Source: a virus. From it: DNA of 24,826 nucleotides. The translations under genes and the position numbers were made by a program. The stretch is from positions 1 to 24,826 of IMG/VR virus record IMGVR_UViG_3300006874_000135, one strand, 5' to 3'. Position 1 is the stretch's first letter. Each line of letters opens with the position of its first letter. The notes under the pieces are model-generated. The model was not told the DNA's origin. It ran no database searches and saw only the letters and a list, made by a program, of their open reading frames with translations. Positions 12,476 to 23,887 of this stretch are shown in pieces.

Positions 12476-14221
12476 TTATATGATCCCGTCCCAGCGGGCT
12501 AAGACCGCCTGCATGCATTCGCAATCCCACAGGTGATCCTGACCATGGCCGGGCGCAATCCATTCCCCGTCAACTTTCTTTGTGCTGGTGACCTGCTTGA
12601 TGTATTGGTTTTTATGACGCGGATCCGGCCAGGTGTCGGGTATGTGCCAGTCGTTGCCCTGCTCGATGCTGTCCATGAGCATGGTTCGGAACGGATCGGT
12701 CGCCCAGCTTAGTTCCAGAAACGGGGATGCGCCACCACCACGACCTTCCAGGGCGTCGCGGATGTGGTAGGTGATGTTGGAAACCTTTTGACTGTCTGAC
12801 CCTTTCATGGCCATGACCGCAGACTCTTTCACATCCGGGTCTGCGTAGTGGGCGCAGTAATCCGCAACTTCGGATTGGCGCAGGGCGTAGCCGATGTCGA
12901 TGCCAACTTGCCGCGGTGAATACTCCGCCAGAATAGTGTCCAGATCTTGAAAGGTTGCGGCGGTTCCATGCTGCACCAACGCGCTGTGATATTCGCCGTT
13001 TTTATTGATTGCCCAGTTCCGGCATAACCAAAACAAATGATATTTCTGCACGTCGACAGTGGCAAAGATTCCAGACTGCCAGCCTTCGGGAACCCAGATG
13101 TTTCCGATCTCGTACTCTTCCGCGCAGTGATCCAGCTTGTCGCTGGTCGCCACTTGCTCCTCCTCCCGGTGCGCTTCGGCCCAATACTCGGCCATGTAAG
13201 TTCGGATGGTGTTGCGATTGCGTTCCGCCCTTTTCGCGGTTTGGTTTAGCCGGTGTTTGGCTGAAAGAAATTTCTTTGCCAGCTCTCCAAACGAGCAGTC
13301 CGTAAACGGGATCATGGGCGCGACAACTTTATACCCGCGTCGGATGCCTTCACCACGGGCGTCCCATCTGCCCTTGCGGGTGTATGCCATGCGCTCGGAC
13401 TCTTCAATCCTCGTCCCGTTTGGAGTCTCGTACCATGCTTGTCGTGCTACTGCTTCCAAATCCCATTGGTCGTCCTGCTTACATTCTTTCGGCCACTTGA
13501 TCCCGCCAAGCGTCCACTCAAACTCTCCGCCAGCTGGATCCGGCATGACCCACACCCGCTTGTCCGATTCTTCGTATAGCTTAATAATGGGCGATTGGTT
13601 CGGGTCGCCTTTTCTGCTGGGGTCAATGGATCCTCCGAAGCAAATGTGGGAAAACGGATAAGCAGCAACCCGCCGGCGTGCCATGTCCACCCCGAACTCC
13701 GGGAAAAGATCCACTTCGTCCAGATACAGGCGGCACCACCCATCGGACTTGATTGCCGTGTCTGAAGTTGCCCAGGTGGAACGGAAGTCCATTGCCGGAA
13801 ACTGGATCTCGGTGTTCAAAACTTTTGCCCGCTTGTATTGTCGTTCTATCTCTTTTGACAAAGCCATGCCACGACACACGCGCCGGTCGTGGAAACCTTT
13901 TGCAATCTCCATTTTGCCGGTCACGTACATGGTAGGCCCGGGATTGCGGGCGATGGTGTACCGCAGATCGGTGAGGATTAGATTTTCGCTGTATCCAGCG
14001 CGGCTGGATTTAAGGATTGCCACTTCCCGGATGCTGTTATCCTGCAATGCTTCCAGTGGCTCTTTCCAGAACGGCATAAGGTCTGGGTCAAACGCTCCAC
14101 GGTAGGGCGTGTCGTAGTTGGCAGCTCGGGAGTAATCCACGTTCTGCTCCGCCCACTTCCAGGATGGCAATGGGTCTTGTTTGCGGAATGCAATTTTGCA
14201 CTGTTTGTCTGGGTCAATCAT
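12476..14221 (-). CDS. Terminase large subunit, lambda GpA family (581 aa)
   Basis: The ATP-driven packaging motor and DNA nuclease of cos-type phages. The N-terminal ATPase has a variant Walker A (KSSRAGYSE, 71-79) and Walker B (LYLDEVDLFPE, from 165). The C-terminal nuclease shows FATVDVQ with Asp390, VGIDIGY with Asp442 and QDHLWDCE with Asp566, the usual acidic metal ligands. WKWAEQNVDYSRAANYDTP near the start is typical of GpA proteins. It overlaps the small terminase by 8 bp. The family suggests cohesive-end packaging. Confidence 0.95.
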   Translation of the reverse strand: MIDPDKQCKIAFRKQDPLPSWKWAEQNVDYSRAANYDTPYRGAFDPDLMPFWKEPLEALQDNSIREVAILKSSRAGYSENLILTDLRYTIARNPGPTMYVTGKMEIAKGFHDRRVCRGMALSKEIERQYKRAKVLNTEIQFPAMDFRSTWATSDTAIKSDGWCRLYLDEVDLFPEFGVDMARRRVAAYPFSHICFGGSIDPSRKGDPNQSPIIKLYEESDKRVWVMPDPAGGEFEWTLGGIKWPKECKQDDQWDLEAVARQAWYETPNGTRIEESERMAYTRKGRWDARGEGIRRGYKVVAPMIPFTDCSFGELAKKFLSAKHRLNQTAKRAERNRNTIRTYMAEYWAEAHREEEQVATSDKLDHCAEEYEIGNIWVPEGWQSGIFATVDVQKYHLFWLCRNWAINKNGEYHSALVQHGTAATFQDLDTILAEYSPRQVGIDIGYALRQSEVADYCAHYADPDVKESAVMAMKGSDSQKVSNITYHIRDALEGRGGGASPFLELSWATDPFRTMLMDSIEQGNDWHIPDTWPDPRHKNQYIKQVTSTKKVDGEWIAPGHGQDHLWDCECMQAVLARWDGII

Positions 14222-14633
14222 GTACCATCTCGCAAAGTCGGTCTGCTAGTTGATTGATAATGTCCGCCTGCTCCGGGTGCTTTGCCGTCTCATGCGCACG
14301 CCAGTCTTCGACCGCTTTTCTGGCTTTCATCCACCGCGCCATAAACCGCGCCTCTTCTTCCTTGCGGTTCACCAGCTCCCCGCGCATCTCTTCAATCTGA
14401 ATGTCCAGCTTGTCAATCTCGCGCAGCAATTTCTCATCACGCAAAGACCCGTCCCCAGTCAACCCGTTCTTTTTCGTTTCTTTAACATACTTTCTCCACT
14501 GCTCAACATTGTAGCCGCTCTTTGTTTTGCGCGGTGCGTCGGGTCGCTTGGCATACGTGCCAAATTGTTGCCGGGACATCCCCAGCATACCGGCAATCTC
14601 GTCTTGTGTGCTTGCGTAATTTGATCCGCTCAT
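14214..14633 (-). CDS. Terminase small subunit, Nu1-like (139 aa)
   Basis: A DNA-recognition subunit predicted by position immediately before GpA and by an N-terminal helix-turn-helix: TQDEIAGMLGMSRQQFGTYAKR (within 9-30), which reads as a MerR/Nu1-like HTH followed by a wing (APRKTKSGYNVEQWRKYV). The middle (65-100) is a charged coiled coil, LRDEKLLREIDKLDIQIEEM, likely for oligomerisation, and the C-terminus probably binds the large subunit. The ATG at 14633 has CAGGAG about 9 bases upstream. Confidence 0.8.
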   Translation of the reverse strand: MSGSNYASTQDEIAGMLGMSRQQFGTYAKRPDAPRKTKSGYNVEQWRKYVKETKKNGLTGDGSLRDEKLLREIDKLDIQIEEMRGELVNRKEEEARFMARWMKARKAVEDWRAHETAKHPEQADIINQLADRLCEMVHD

Positions 14634-14843: not shown

Positions 14844-15123
14844 CGGACTCATCCACCAGCTCGTCGTCTACCGCTTCGTCGTCATCCAACCAGCCACGGA
14901 ACGCGCAATAGTCAGAATATACATAGTAATCTGGATCGAGCATCGTTCGGCTAATCATTGGGATCTCGCCTATTCGCACACAGAACTCAATCCACGCCTT
15001 GTGGATGTCTCGACTCGCTGCTCGTCTCATGGCTTCGTTGTGTCCATCCTCAAACCAATCGCGAATCTCTTTCTCTGTCATTGGGCGACCTTTCGGCCGG
15101 CGGTACTTCTTGCGGACTTTCAT
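14836..15123 (-). CDS. Hypothetical phage protein (95 aa), basic N-terminus and acidic tail
   Basis: Not recognised. It starts at the ATG at 15123, overlapping the resolvase-like gene by ATGA. The first 15 residues are strongly basic (MKVRKKYRRPKGRP), a helical section follows (EKEIRDWFEDGHNEAMRRAA), and the last 20 residues are very acidic (DDDEAVDDELVDESDA). The charge split might suit a nucleic-acid-binding or DNA-mimic protein, which is speculation. It lies between a nuclease gene and a zinc-protein gene at the end of the replication unit. Confidence 0.7.
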   Translation of the reverse strand: MKVRKKYRRPKGRPMTEKEIRDWFEDGHNEAMRRAASRDIHKAWIEFCVRIGEIPMISRTMLDPDYYVYSDYCAFRGWLDDDEAVDDELVDESDA

Positions 15124-15446
15124 GCGTCATTTCCTTTTGAGTGCCAAACCACTGACTTTTGTGATTGTCTAAGTATTAACCAAGATGATGTTCCATCAAT
15201 TTTGCAAGCAAGCATCCAAGGCATACGACCCGCCTGGCGTATGGCTTGTGCTCTCCATTCGCGTATGTTCATGCTCACCGCATTCTTGACTTCGATTGAC
15301 CAGACCTGCCCGCTTGGATCAACCGCCAAGAAGTCCTCGACCGCAGTGCCAGAGTTCAGCTCGCGCACCTCCCAGTCTCGATCCCGCAGAAGGTTGCCAA
15401 ATTCCAGTTGACCCCGCCGACCTTTTGATCTTGAATTGATGGTCAT
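15120..15446 (-). CDS. PD-(D/E)XK nuclease, Holliday-junction-resolvase-like (108 aa)
   Basis: A small nuclease with RSKGRRGQLEFGNLL (Glu15), VEDFLAVDPSG with Asp38, and WSIEVKNA with Glu52 and Lys54, the E/D-ExK pattern of archaeal Hjc-like and phage resolvases. Phages use such enzymes to resolve branched replication intermediates before packaging, consistent with its position just before terminase. The ATG at 15446 has no strong Shine-Dalgarno site. It lies immediately downstream of the iteron region. VRR-type or another branch-cutting nuclease is an alternative. Confidence 0.75.
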   Translation of the reverse strand: MTINSRSKGRRGQLEFGNLLRDRDWEVRELNSGTAVEDFLAVDPSGQVWSIEVKNAVSMNIREWRAQAIRQAGRMPWMLACKIDGTSSWLILRQSQKSVVWHSKGNDA

Positions 15447-15472
15447 GAGTACATCCGTGTTTGATGTGCAAG

Positions 15473-15761
15473 GTAGGTTTCGGTAGGTTTTTTTCCCTCT
15501 ATTCTATTTCTGTTCATACTGCTTCCTCACGCGTAGGGGTCAAATAAAACCTACCCAAACCTACCCTATTTCTATAAGTGTCTGATTTGTGGCGGTTTAA
15601 GGTGGTAGGTTTATAGGTAGGTTTCCCCCAAAAAAGGTAGGTTTGGGTAGGTTTGGAGCCTAAAAAACCGACTGGATTTGACTTTGTATAGGTCATAACT
15701 ATCAGAAGGGTAAGGATTCGCCTATATCAGTAGGTTTGCTGGTAGGTTTCTCGGTAGGTTT
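15473..15761. repeat. Iteron array, candidate replication origin
   Basis: Eleven copies of GTAGGTTT or its complement AAACCTAC. Plus-strand GTAGGTTT starts at 15473, 15483, 15605, 15617, 15637, 15647, 15730, 15742 and 15754; the reverse form is at 15547 and 15557. Two pairs form a perfect 19-bp inverted repeat (15547-15565 with 15636-15654). Three copies are inside the last codons of the primase-helicase gene and encode its Lys-Pro-Thr repeats. The 255-bp stretch 15447-15701 has no convincing gene and includes A/T-rich sequence, as in an iteron origin. A regulator-binding array is the main alternative. Confidence 0.65.
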
Positions 15762-18521
15762 CTCCGACTGGAAATCGGCCGGATTTTGACCCACATTGTC
15801 ATGCACAATCCACTGGGTTCCCTTGCTGGATTCGTGTGCTTTTGTGATCCGCATTCCGTTGCAAATCCTGTCCATACGGTTGAGAAAAAAGCGCCCCAAT
15901 CGGCGTCCGTTCAGATCCCTCAACCCAACCGCGTCTGCGATGCTGTCGTGGATGGTTTCGTCCTCTTCATAGACGGTAGTATGGTCGCGGTTGTAACGCT
16001 GGTTTGTGACGTTCTCGACCACGTGAATGACCTCCCTGGCTGTGAAAGATTGATGCCGGAACTTCTGATGCAGTGCGTGCAGAAGCTCTGCCCATTCTTC
16101 CTGCTCTGGATCTGTCGCCTGTCCGGCTTTCATCACATCCATCGGGTCGCATACTACGTCCGGGTAGTGATCAGACAGCCACGCAATCGGCTGGCGCACC
16201 ACGTCATCCCACTCCTCAAAGCTGGCAAGTCGGCCTTTAGCGTGTGGCCTTCCTGCTGTTATCCATGCCCGTATAATGGTCATAGCCGCTGCCAGTATAT
16301 TGAACCTACGTTGCATACAGAACGTCTCTGGGTCGAAATCGAACTCCCGTGCGTAGGGCTCATCCATGTTCGGGTTGATACGGCAACGGAAAATCCGGCG
16401 TGGCATATCGCCTGCCAGTTGCAGGTTGTTGCCTGTAAACAGCCATAAAGCCATGTTTGGGATCGTAACGCTTGTGCTGGAGCCCAGAATACGGTCTGTA
16501 TAGCTTGCAGACGTAAGCAGTCCAGCCATTGATGCCGAGTTGAACCGCCCGAGGATGTTATCCCAAACCACGCATTCCGCACCCGACACCAGAAGCGCCA
16601 TGACCCGCTTTCTGATTTCCTCGTCGTCTTTGCCCGAAACGTGCGGTTTTACGTCCGCTTTCTTTCCGGTTGCGATGGCGTGCAAAGACTGCGCCAGTAA
16701 CGTCTTGCCCGAGCCTTGAATCGGAGCGTCAAAGCCAAAGCCTGGGCACGTGTCAATCACCGGGCGCATGACCGCAGACAGAACTGCTGCAATCAATACA
16801 GTTCGATCATGCACCCCCTCAAATGGAAAGTATCGGAAAGGCTCCATAATCACCTGCAACGCCTTTTCTGCGTCCTCAAGCGCAGGATTTGACGGCACCG
16901 GGGTGATTTCGTCCTCATTGAAGTTAAGCAACAGCCCGGTGGACGCGTCAAACCCGGGTTTATCAATGATCTCGCCCGTGGTCAACATGATGGGCATACT
17001 CACCACCCGTTTAAGTTCGGGCAGTTGGCGTTGCCGTCCAATGCTGGAAATCACCTTGGCCACCTGCAACGGCGGATCCTTCGGCACGTCAATCAACGCA
17101 TCTGTCCCGCTTTTTGTGGCCTGCCGTTTGTAGTATTGGCAGTGTTCACCCATCCACCACACCAGCGAGTAGTCTTGCAGGCGCGTGAATCCGTGGTCGT
17201 CCACCTTTACGATGTCGTTCCCGAACTCATATACATCATTCGCCTTGCGCATGGCATCCAAGGTCTTTTTGATGACCTCGGCAGTGCGCCCATCTGCAAG
17301 CTCAATCATTTCCGGGGCCTTTACCAGTCGATACGTGCGCCCTCCGTGTGCGAAAGAGTAGAGACGCGGTGATCCATTCAACAGGTACAGCTTGCCAACC
17401 GGCTGCCCGCCCCTGTAATCGGGTTCTATCGGATCCAGCGTGTCCGCCCCGTGCCACTTTTCTGGATCCATAAGCAAATCCAGAATCTTGACCGGCTTAA
17501 ATTCGCCCTCTACGTCCACCATCACCGTGAAGTCGCCACCCAATGTGCCACCTTCACAAGCCCGCTCTACCGCTTGAACGCATTCCTCGATCTTTTCTGC
17601 CGTAGCACCAGGCCCTGCAATCTCCCGCCCTCGCTGTTTGCAGTAGTCGGCACGGATCGCGCTTGCCTGCTCTTCTGCCAAGTCCAGAGCCGTCTTTACG
17701 ATCCGGTCATGATCTTTAGACTCCTCTGCGCTTAATTCCGGCAAAACCACAGCCAGATCCGCAACACCGCCCTCAACCACCACAGGATGCCCCCTGTCTT
17801 GATACAGTGGCTCGTGGCACACTGCACCTGCAGCAAAATCAAAGCGGTTTGTCTGCCACACAGATGCGTCTACGAGGGTTCGTTTTAGCTTGGATCCGGC
17901 CTTGGACACTTCAACCCAACCCTGACCCGAAAGCCACAAACGCTTGACAAGTGCCTCGCCCGCTCTGGGGATCTCGATTGCGTTCTTTACAAAGAAGTAA
18001 ATACGCTGTCCAGACAGGCCGGAGATGTGTTCGCCGGTGACCCTGTTGCGGATGTAGGAAGACGACGACGGGATCGACACATATCCAACCCCAGCAAGCC
18101 CGGGCGCTGCCTTGCATAACTTTGCCCAAAGTTCTTGATGCGACAAAGGCGCTTGCCCTGCCGGTGGGTCGTAATCAATGAAGAAAACGCCCGGCCCATT
18201 GTCGAAATACATATCCGCTTTAGTGCGGGTCTGCACGTCCATAGGGTATCCTGCCTTTTTGTGGGCAGGCTTCGACATCATTCTGGCGTTACCCAGGCGC
18301 GTCAACCCATAGCAAAGCGCTTGGTTCGGGTTTAGGTTTTCGATCAGATCCGCAAAGCCCTTCAAGCTCTCAACCTGCGCAGTTTCGCAACTGCCCTCCG
18401 ACATATTCCCGCCGGATTCCTTTACAGCCTTGCCCTCGACCAGTTTCCATACCTTGGTCAGGTGCTTCGGCTTTTCGCTCGTGATTATGGTTAGTTTTGG
18501 GTTCATTATTTTAACACACAT
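15702..18521 (-). CDS. Replicative primase-helicase (939 aa)
   Basis: The N-terminal part resembles an archaeo-eukaryotic primase: VFFIDYDPP with Asp116/Asp118, SIPSSSSYI (150-157), GQRIYFFV and TLVDASVW with Asp218 give motifs I to III. The C-terminal ATPase has FDAPIQGSGKT (Walker A 603-607), CVVWDNI (Walker B, about 650-656), WLFTGNN (sensor 1) and MPRRIF (arginine finger about 708), fitting a phage SF3-like replicative helicase. The C-terminus is EKPTEKPTSKPTDIG followed by ESLPF, like an SSB tip. The start could be 18521 or the MNPK start at 18506; neither has a clear ribosome site. It overlaps the preceding nuclease gene by 11 bp if 18521 is used. Confidence 0.85.
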   Translation of the reverse strand: MCVKIMNPKLTIITSEKPKHLTKVWKLVEGKAVKESGGNMSEGSCETAQVESLKGFADLIENLNPNQALCYGLTRLGNARMMSKPAHKKAGYPMDVQTRTKADMYFDNGPGVFFIDYDPPAGQAPLSHQELWAKLCKAAPGLAGVGYVSIPSSSSYIRNRVTGEHISGLSGQRIYFFVKNAIEIPRAGEALVKRLWLSGQGWVEVSKAGSKLKRTLVDASVWQTNRFDFAAGAVCHEPLYQDRGHPVVVEGGVADLAVVLPELSAEESKDHDRIVKTALDLAEEQASAIRADYCKQRGREIAGPGATAEKIEECVQAVERACEGGTLGGDFTVMVDVEGEFKPVKILDLLMDPEKWHGADTLDPIEPDYRGGQPVGKLYLLNGSPRLYSFAHGGRTYRLVKAPEMIELADGRTAEVIKKTLDAMRKANDVYEFGNDIVKVDDHGFTRLQDYSLVWWMGEHCQYYKRQATKSGTDALIDVPKDPPLQVAKVISSIGRQRQLPELKRVVSMPIMLTTGEIIDKPGFDASTGLLLNFNEDEITPVPSNPALEDAEKALQVIMEPFRYFPFEGVHDRTVLIAAVLSAVMRPVIDTCPGFGFDAPIQGSGKTLLAQSLHAIATGKKADVKPHVSGKDDEEIRKRVMALLVSGAECVVWDNILGRFNSASMAGLLTSASYTDRILGSSTSVTIPNMALWLFTGNNLQLAGDMPRRIFRCRINPNMDEPYAREFDFDPETFCMQRRFNILAAAMTIIRAWITAGRPHAKGRLASFEEWDDVVRQPIAWLSDHYPDVVCDPMDVMKAGQATDPEQEEWAELLHALHQKFRHQSFTAREVIHVVENVTNQRYNRDHTTVYEEDETIHDSIADAVGLRDLNGRRLGRFFLNRMDRICNGMRITKAHESSKGTQWIVHDNVGQNPADFQSEKPTEKPTSKPTDIGESLPF

Positions 18522-19068
18522 ATATTGGTGAGTTTAAGGGAGAATTTTCATAAGCGATTCTGGTGGCATCTTCTAACTGATCCTCACAGCTTGCAACATT
18601 GATGTTGTCAATCATCCATTCAGAAGAGCAAGTTGCTTCTGGATAAGATATATAATGAAAACACTTCCCGCCTGCAGTTTCGTATATGTGCGGGATAACG
18701 TACAAATCAGGTTCGCCTGGTGCGGTTTTTAATGTGCCAAATGTTGTGAACCCGGGTTTGCCAAACCTTATGATGCAAGAGTGACCCGTTTCGACCGATA
18801 ACTGTTTGATTTTTTCGATTTCCTTAGCTGTTGGGAAAGTTGGCTTTACCTCAACCAAATACCCTGCATTTTCACGACCATCTATGTCAGGAAGCGGGAA
18901 CCAGAAGTCTGGCAAATAACCGCTACCCCCAAAGCTAATAGCATATCTCCTTGGCTCGTATTCAAAATGCAACTTAAGCCTTGTCCAATAAATGGCCCAT
19001 GCAGCCTCAAGCTTTGATCTATATGTAACACCATTAACGGTCGTAGGTATTGATCTTTTTGTTATCAT
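18511..19068 (-). CDS. PD-(D/E)XK endonuclease (185 aa)
   Basis: Core nuclease signature: YRSKLEAAWAIYWTRL with Glu21, GGSGYLPDFWFPLPD with Asp54, and YLVEVKPTFPT with Glu73-x-Lys75, then a helix AKEIEKIKQLS. This arrangement is widespread in phages and mobile DNA (VSR/TnsA-like fold). It lies directly before the primase-helicase and overlaps its first codons, so it may process DNA ends or recombination intermediates. By eye it is more A/T-rich than the flanking replication genes, suggesting later acquisition. The ATG at 19068 follows TTTGGAG and overlaps the small upstream ORF by ATGA. Confidence 0.75.
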   Translation of the reverse strand: MITKRSIPTTVNGVTYRSKLEAAWAIYWTRLKLHFEYEPRRYAISFGGSGYLPDFWFPLPDIDGRENAGYLVEVKPTFPTAKEIEKIKQLSVETGHSCIIRFGKPGFTTFGTLKTAPGEPDLYVIPHIYETAGGKCFHYISYPEATCSSEWMIDNINVASCEDQLEDATRIAYENSPLNSPIYVC

Positions 19069-21655: not shown

Positions 21656-21985
21656 TCAGAACGGCATCGATTCTTCCGCAACCGCAACCGGCTCCGGCGC
21701 TGGCGCAGTCGTACTCGCACCCTCGGCCTTGCTGATTTTCCACGCGGCCAAGTTGACGTAATAACGCTCCTTGTACTCGTTGCCACGGATGTTGAATGCA
21801 ACCGTCACCTGGTCGCCCGTGTCGTATGCGTCCAGCTCGGTGACCTTGTCCTTGACGAACTCCAACTTGATGTCCTGCGGGTACTTGTCCTCGGTGGTGA
21901 TCACGAATTCGCGCTTTGCGAATCCTGAATCAAACGTCTGCGTGTCGTTAATCACCTTGATAGTGCCTTGTATTTCGTAACTCAT
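21656..21985 (-). CDS. DUF3127 single-stranded-DNA-binding-like protein (109 aa)
   Basis: Residues 1-85 match DUF3127: YEIQGTIKVINDTQTF, then GFAKREFVITTEDKYPQDI, and later VTVAFNIRGNEYKERYYVN, a predicted OB fold. A flexible Ala/Pro linker and an acidic, hydrophobic tip (AEESMPF) follow, much like the C-terminal tip of bacterial SSB. I infer that it coats ssDNA and recruits replication or recombination partners. The ATG at 21985 with AAAGGAGAAG is preferred over a longer in-frame start. It lies between a recombination-type cluster and the helicase. Confidence 0.82.
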   Translation of the reverse strand: MSYEIQGTIKVINDTQTFDSGFAKREFVITTEDKYPQDIKLEFVKDKVTELDAYDTGDQVTVAFNIRGNEYKERYYVNLAAWKISKAEGASTTAPAPEPVAVAEESMPF

Positions 21986-22002
21986 TTCTTCTCCTTTTTG
22001 GT

Positions 22003-22200
22003 TTATACTAAATATTTTGGCTTCCGACACATTGACAAAAGAGCAATGGCCGCAGACCTACGCGCTGGCATACCAATATGGTCGTTCATAAAGGTTGACC
22101 ATTGTGGCGTATCTTTCACTTTTTTTTGGCAAGTGGCGCAAAGCATAATTTCTGTTTCTTTCCGCCCTCCACATACGCAATCTCTATTGTCGTAACTCAT
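22003..22200 (-). CDS. Small zinc-binding protein (65 aa)
   Basis: ATG 22200 overlaps the previous stop by ATGA. Cys8-x-Cys10 (RDCVCGG) and Cys21-x2-Cys24 (MLCATCQKKV) form a likely zinc knuckle, followed by a helical C-terminus (MPARRSAAIALLSMCRKP). The coding sequence is A/T-richer than its neighbours by eye. Family unknown; nucleic-acid binding is possible. Confidence 0.68.
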   Translation of the reverse strand: MSYDNRDCVCGGRKETEIMLCATCQKKVKDTPQWSTFMNDHIGMPARRSAAIALLSMCRKPKYLV

Positions 22201-23516: not shown

Positions 23517-23687
23517 TTATTTGTTTTCAATTAAGTCCAGCACGATCTTTCGCACCATTGCGGTGGGAGTGATCCGGTACTTGGCCGCCAGCTCTACCAG
23601 TAGCGCGTAATCGGCTTCGGTAAAGTTGACGTTGACTGCCCGCTTCGGCTCCTTAGCCCGGTCAAATTGTGGGTTGCTTGGTTTCAT
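23517..23687 (-). CDS. Ribbon-helix-helix DNA-binding protein (56 aa)
   Basis: A small CopG/Arc-like repressor: AVNVNFTEADYALLVELAA is the beta strand and first helix, then RITPTAMVRKIVLDLIENK is the turn and second helix. Such dimers bind operator palindromes through the strand. I chose ATG 23687, which overlaps the membrane-protein stop by ATGA; an in-frame ATG at 23702 is also possible. A structured terminator-like element follows. Its target might be this early region or the host; none is proven. Confidence 0.8.
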   Translation of the reverse strand: MKPSNPQFDRAKEPKRAVNVNFTEADYALLVELAAKYRITPTAMVRKIVLDLIENK

Positions 23688-23887
23688 CCGTTGCGACTCC
23701 ATGCGCGGTATGCAGTCCCGGCCAAGATCAGAAGCGGGATTGCAATTGCAAAGATGATTTCCACCACCGCCCACACGATAGCGGGCACCTCTTCTTCTTT
23801 GCGGCGCTCCTCGTCAATCAGTTCGTCGACGATGTATCCAGGCGGTTTTGTCCAGTCAACATCCAGTCCGTTATGTTTGCGGCTCAT
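23684..23887 (-). CDS. Small membrane protein (67 aa)
   Basis: A charged N-terminus with DELIDEERRKEEE is followed by one transmembrane helix at about 34-60 (PAIVWAVVEIIFAIAIPLLI) and a short basic tail RAWSRNG, so the N-terminus is probably outside or the acidic part is on one face. The ATG at 23887 has AAAGGAGAAAGAC. It follows another tiny membrane protein and precedes an RHH gene. Superinfection exclusion, anti-defence or membrane docking are possible. Confidence 0.75.
   Translation of the reverse strand: MSRKHNGLDVDWTKPPGYIVDELIDEERRKEEEVPAIVWAVVEIIFAIAIPLLILAGTAYRAWSRNG

Follow-up and report, generated by a model that had tools for sequence, protein, structure and literature searches.

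A candidate iteron-based replication origin at the 3′ end of a primase-helicase gene in a tailed phage

Introduction

The closest described counterparts of the locus analysed here are the rep-ori modules of SaPIs and other PICIs, in which the origin lies directly 3′ of rep, iteron sets flank an AT-rich region, and a C-terminal domain recognizes the iterons (PMC7581432; PMC6092414). In Gram-negative PICIs, the gene together with its 3′ array was shown to maintain a plasmid (PMC6092414). SaPI Rep and Cch2 both recognize iterons just downstream of their own genes via the C-terminal domain (PMC7581432). Cch2, from SCCmec, is a D5-family self-loading helicase whose C-terminal domain binds direct repeats at that place, as proposed here, but its helicase and primase are separate proteins and it has just three 5-nt iterons (PMC7581432). 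For pRN1 ORF904 and the Bordetella phages BIP-1/BPP-1, an AEP primase, an SF3 helicase and a winged helix share one protein and the origin region again lies directly downstream, although a stem-loop without iterons is reported there, whereas iterons dominate in the present locus (PMC4234260). The alpha protein of satellite phage P4, with ori/crr, also unites primase, helicase and a winged-helix initiator that binds repeats (PMC4234260).

The window (the whole stretch of DNA analysed, 24,826 bp) is a single virus record and may be incomplete at both ends. Its genes include those for a lambda-type gpA terminase and for portal, head protease, major head and tape-measure proteins; because it carries its own structural genes, a PICI, that is, a helper-dependent satellite, was ruled out as the identity of this element. 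It also stands apart from P4, whose alpha protein has a bacterial TOPRIM-type primase and whose iteron and layout are different. Phage lambda offers a likeness of another sort, since its ori lies inside gene O and thus has iterons within an initiator gene, but the O protein lacks a helicase domain and needs a helicase loader.

The Iteron Array

An exact search of the whole window returned eleven copies of GTAGGTTT, counting both strands, all at 15473-15761 and none elsewhere. This bears out the first-pass annotation, which had claimed eleven copies of an 8-mer in 289 bp and had proposed looking for the word in the rest of the sequence. Shuffles of the window gave a mean count of 0.38, and 0 of 100 reached 11. 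Nine copies lie on the plus strand and two on the minus strand, and ten share the extended form GGTAGGTTT. As had been noted, the array follows a primase-helicase gene (15702-18521, minus strand). The accompanying description of the region as largely non-coding holds for the eight copies in the 255-bp gap behind that gene (15447-15701) and fails for the remaining three (15730-15761), which lie within the 3′ end of its coding sequence.

The copies fall into four clusters. Cluster 1 (15473-15490, plus strand) consists of two iterons at 15473 and 15483, spaced by 10, and cluster 2 (15547-15564, minus strand) of two inverted iterons at 15547 and 15557 with the same spacing; between them lies a 56-bp spacer (15491-15546), a candidate melting region. 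Two forward copies, a spacer and two inverted copies is the order also seen in the arrays of relatives, and opposed iteron sets are present in the window. Cluster 3 (15605-15654, plus strand) holds four iterons, at 15605, 15617, 15637 and 15647, and is separated from cluster 2 by a second spacer (15565-15604). Cluster 4 (15730-15761, plus strand), with iterons at 15730, 15742 and 15754 spaced by 12, is the coding one. The spacers show moderate AT richness only, 40-bp windows reaching at most 0.68 AT.

The perfect 19-bp inverted repeat of paired iterons reported earlier was found again: AAACCTACCCAAACCTACC and GGTAGGTTTGGGTAGGTTT (15547-15565 and 15636-15654) form the perfect outer part of an inverted repeat spanning 15547-15654, within 25-nt arms that are 92% complementary. 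As single-stranded DNA, 15447-15701 folds better than shuffles (z = -2.49). GC skew, suggested as a check, has no switch at the array and is uninformative for the origin question here, and a scan of 15300-15900 found no sigma-70 promoter and no terminator. A 60-aa ORF (15514-15696, minus strand) lies within the array region.

The candidate origin is bounded by the next gene, which encodes a RusA-like Holliday junction resolvase (15120-15446, minus strand; PHROG 244, E 2.8e-10) and begins some 27 bp past the outermost iteron of the array, in cluster 1. Holliday-junction-resolvase-like PHROG matches flank the primase-helicase gene on both sides (15120-15446 and 18511-19068). A small terminase subunit is encoded at 14214-14633, about 850 bp from the array, and a ribbon-helix-helix-like small protein at 23517-23774 has a weak match to PHROG 4113.

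The Primase-Helicase

The 939-aa product of the gene matches DNA primase and DNA polymerase/primase families in PHROG; a Pfam search found no domain in it and a PDB sequence search no useful match. The classical Rep_3/RepA type of iteron plasmid was considered and rejected, given that the array lies downstream rather than upstream and that the protein is a primase-helicase without a Pfam match. AlphaFold models were confident for both halves (pLDDT 89.4 for residues 1-430; mean pLDDT 91.7 for residues 395-939). Residues 1-430 show an AEP/PrimPol fold, with modest structural matches to the S-2L PrimPol and mycobacterial PrimPolC (Z 6.9) and to the AEP domain of vaccinia D5 (5.8). The predicted helicase half, of SF3/D5-type AAA+ fold, best matches SaPI1 PriRep with dsDNA (Z 14.0 over 300 residues), followed by SaPI5 PriRep (13.4), vaccinia D5 (13.2) and NrS-1 (11.6); identity to PriRep in the structural alignment is 11-13%. 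In alignments with relatives, the Walker A lysine is invariant and the downstream motifs are present. The alignment to 7pds (PriRep1-dsDNA) extends to model residue 520. Model residues 411-515 are predicted as helices and two long strands with pLDDT mostly above 90. This helical and winged-helix region (residues about 805-909; 15795-16109, minus strand) is the proposed iteron-binding domain. The models thus suggest that AEP primase, SF3 helicase and winged helix are combined in one protein, the AEP matches being modest (Z 6-7).

Beyond this region lies a C-terminal tail of about 30 residues (15705-15794, minus strand). Its KPT-type sequence (EKPTEKPTSKPT; protein end ...EKPTEKPTSKPTDIGESLPF) is encoded by the three in-gene iterons, has no counterpart in aligned relatives, and is predicted to be disordered, with the last residues below pLDDT 50. 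The C-terminus of the protein, DIGESLPF (15702-15728), and that of an SSB-like protein encoded at 21656-22030, EESMPF (21656-21675), both resemble the SSB tip, and are possibly a shared docking peptide.

Arrays Behind Related Genes

Relatives were drawn from viral contigs, genomes and plasmids, and those sharing the helicase half were dereplicated at 80% identity to 63; 587 other ORF ends from the same loci served as controls. Arrays were scored by a blind two-strand 7-mer count requiring both orientations and at least five copies within 400 bp of the stop codon on its 3′ side. By this test, a dense two-strand array follows 18 of the 63 relatives and 3 of the 587 control ORF ends (Fisher p about 5e-17), and the signal lies between about -200 and +400 relative to the stop, with windows outside that range at background. 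The other 45 relatives fall under the threshold (35 with fewer than four copies), close ones such as L001, L004, L005 and L122 among them; in many of these, the array is degenerate, short or elsewhere. The first-pass annotation had made the origin reading depend on conservation of the repeats in relatives with the same primase. Such conservation was found for place, arrays lying at the same position, but not for the word, which is lineage-specific and not GTAGGTTT: GGTAGGG, TACCCGC, TCCCCCG, GTCCCCG, TGCGGGG, GTGGGTC, GCATAGG, CAGGGGG and others. A forward iteron set, a spacer and an inverted set form the recurrent layout, with a balance of orientations that varies from 9:2 in the window to 3:13 in L229 and 4:5 in L150. 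Dozens of related genes are thus followed by an array of this plan, each lineage using a repeat word of its own.

The same plan occurs behind the helicase genes of L166/G403 (40.5 kb) and L207/G408 (50.1 kb), two viral contigs that also carry genes for capsid, portal and integrase. An iteron includes or adjoins the stop codon in L150 (GCA-TAG-G), L207 (TGA-AGGA), L229 and L232, so arrays that run into the end of the gene are not a peculiarity of the window phage. The 3′ array tracks the helicase half, and relatives with the primase half alone have none. In the clade of Shewanella phage SFCi1 and its relatives (L006, 801-1078; L128-L130), GTGCAC/GTGCGC-type two-strand arrays lie upstream of the gene, and these genes share only the primase half with the window protein. 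The collection was scanned with subsets of 24 aligned helicase halves, which were too diverse as a full set; DUF5906 gave a weak Pfam match in 3 of the 24. No significant covariation between iteron word and C-terminal domain was found (Mantel p 0.074), words being common only to near-identical proteins.

The Psychrobacter plasmid pA32H2, circular and 6,547 bp with four annotated genes, carries a relative of the window primase-helicase (34% identity) as its only recognisable replication gene. The other genes scanned encode a Sel1-repeat protein and small unknowns, with no recognisable terminase. Directly after the primase-helicase gene, three forward GGTAGGG-type repeats are separated from three inverted copies by AT-rich DNA. 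Besides its primase-helicase relative, plasmid pA17P3 (L004, 1163-1249) has another replication gene, RepM, which comes with four direct repeats of its own.

Many relatives have a further element, AAACTGTCAGA, in common. This core element, AAA(C/G)TGTCAGA, is enriched past the stop codon (TGACAGTT in 13 of 63 relatives vs 0.1 expected) and lies 0-400 bp after the helicase stop in L122, L136, L172, L186, L207, L219 and others. A model of the element, trained on one group, also recovered it in a held-out set (at score 12, 7 of 26 vs 9 of 359 control windows). Several loci carry the element as an inverted pair between iteron arrays, and it is conserved while the iteron words differ. Copies in the window are weak: the best local match, in the spacer at 15565-15604, is TAAGTGTCTGAT (15575-15586, plus strand; weak with the held-out model), which a scan of both strands placed second-best in the window, and TAACTATCAGAA (15696-15707, plus strand) lies at the primase-helicase stop codon. 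Under the held-out model the window scores 9.0, which 9 of its 56 control windows equal or exceed, and the core element is therefore not claimed for the window phage.

The word GTAGGTTT itself was also sought elsewhere. In a search on DNA alone for two GTAGGTTT, 35-65 bp and an inverted copy, the window arrangement was found in five viral contigs and the opposite order in none. In L250 and in L248 and L251, which encode the same protein, it lies directly behind a primase-helicase of DUF3987 type, an ATPase family other than that of the window's helicase; the other two contigs look incidental. Iteron arrays directly behind DUF3987-type genes were seen in L250 (12446-12535), L251 (6901-6990), L287, L288 and L292. 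Among DUF3987-type primase-helicases more widely, arrays at this place were enriched (5 of 22 vs 7 of 435, p 1e-4), the loci being few and partly related. Clusters of GTAGGTTT in viral contigs at large (111 stretches) do not speak for shared origins: nearly all are one-stranded, and those inspected are largely coding (pentapeptide, KP-rich). Two of them, L049 (2796-2998) and L077 (4501-4793), resemble coding sequence for pentapeptide repeats, and such clusters give rise to false iteron calls.

Alternative Explanations

That the word is carried by chance, through a KPT-type protein repeat or the 60-aa ORF (15514-15696, minus strand), is extremely improbable. Three copies do encode KPT in the primase tail, and the clusters that the word forms in other viral contigs are for the most part one-stranded and, where inspected, largely coding; the window array, however, has a two-strand orientation and a mostly non-coding position, and arrays of unrelated words recur at the same place in relatives. 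The repeats could instead be operators, bound by the ribbon-helix-helix-like protein (23517-23774) or by the primase-helicase itself, through which the downstream resolvase and the late genes would be controlled. An operator of eleven copies in 289 bp, with three in the upstream gene, would be unusual, the scan of 15300-15900 found no sigma-70 promoter or terminator, and the array follows the helicase gene in phages and plasmids whose downstream genes differ. We consider this role distinctly unlikely, even though about 27 bp separate cluster 1 from the resolvase start codon downstream of it and a candidate binder exists in the small protein with the weak PHROG 4113 match. Autoregulation, moreover, often accompanies origin binding.

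A packaging site, cosB- or pac-like and bound by the small terminase subunit, would suit the lambda-type gpA terminase and the short distance to the subunit gene, and terminases of lambda type bind repeated sites close to the genes that encode them. It is nevertheless very unlikely, as the array tracks the 3′ end of the helicase gene and is retained beside that gene in pA32H2, which among its four annotated genes has no recognisable terminase; a plasmid of this kind speaks for replication and rules out packaging as what the arrays do in general. A pRN1-type origin, in which the inverted repeat would matter as structure and the iterons be incidental, finds a precedent in the AEP-SF3-winged-helix protein of pRN1 with its stem-loop origin directly downstream (PMC4234260), and is consistent with the single-strand folding (z -2.49). 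Inverted copies of one word form stems automatically, however, and the widely varying copy balance (window, L229, L150) is more in keeping with binding sites than with a conserved stem, so that this reading, too, is unlikely.

Proposed Mechanism and Implications

The array is very probably the replication origin of the phage, with the adjacent primase-helicase as its initiator. The candidate origin of the first-pass annotation is thereby supported by the arrays behind the helicase half of relatives, by the terminase-free plasmid that keeps its array, and by a predicted fold closest to SaPI PriRep. A predicted D5/SF3-like AAA+ core and an iteron array directly 3′ of the initiator gene are both found in the window. 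Its likeness to the rep-ori of SaPIs and Gram-negative PICIs (SaPI1, SaPI5 PriRep, EcCICFT073) takes in a primase-helicase with a D5-like AAA+ core and a C-terminal region, an origin right behind the gene at its 3′ end, a spacer with iteron sets to either side, and an element-specific word (PMC6092414; PMC7581432). The window differs in being a tailed phage with terminase, portal, capsid and tape-measure genes, in its extra iteron cluster within coding sequence, and in an AT-rich melting region that is not pronounced. The module would thus work like a PICI/SaPI rep-ori, but in a tailed phage.

We infer the steps of initiation, from binding to fork direction, as follows. The C-terminal winged-helix region would bind GGTAGGTTT iterons in the oppositely oriented arrays and thereby load the SF3/D5-type AAA+ domain as a double hexamer, its two rings face to face across 15491-15546 or 15565-15604. 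ATP-driven melting of the spacer would expose single strands, on which the fused AEP primase may make the first primers, and the forks would be extended by host or phage replication proteins. An origin at the 3′ end of its initiator gene would tie protein and iteron together as a cassette; here, the array enters the last codons.

The design is already known from PICIs and, with a stem-loop replacing iterons, from pRN1, and the range found here is wider than that published in the open-access literature. It is possible, though somewhat less likely than not, that the primase-helicases of phages, prophages and plasmids include a large class, for the most part unannotated, whose origin is a 3′ cassette, in which fast-changing, lineage-specific iterons are joined to a slow-changing shared core, AAA(C/G)TGTCAGA, sometimes an inverted pair, with a shared role, for example in primer start or in docking a host factor. 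If so, an origin organization described as exclusive to PICIs would turn out to be one that they have in common with phages and plasmids in general. The plan found here, behind helicase genes of a tailed phage, two further viral contigs and a small plasmid, itself yields a simple guide to the origins of unannotated phages, which is to search just past the primase-helicase stop codon, and the relatives supply many natural pairs of protein and iteron for the study of how origin specificity changes.
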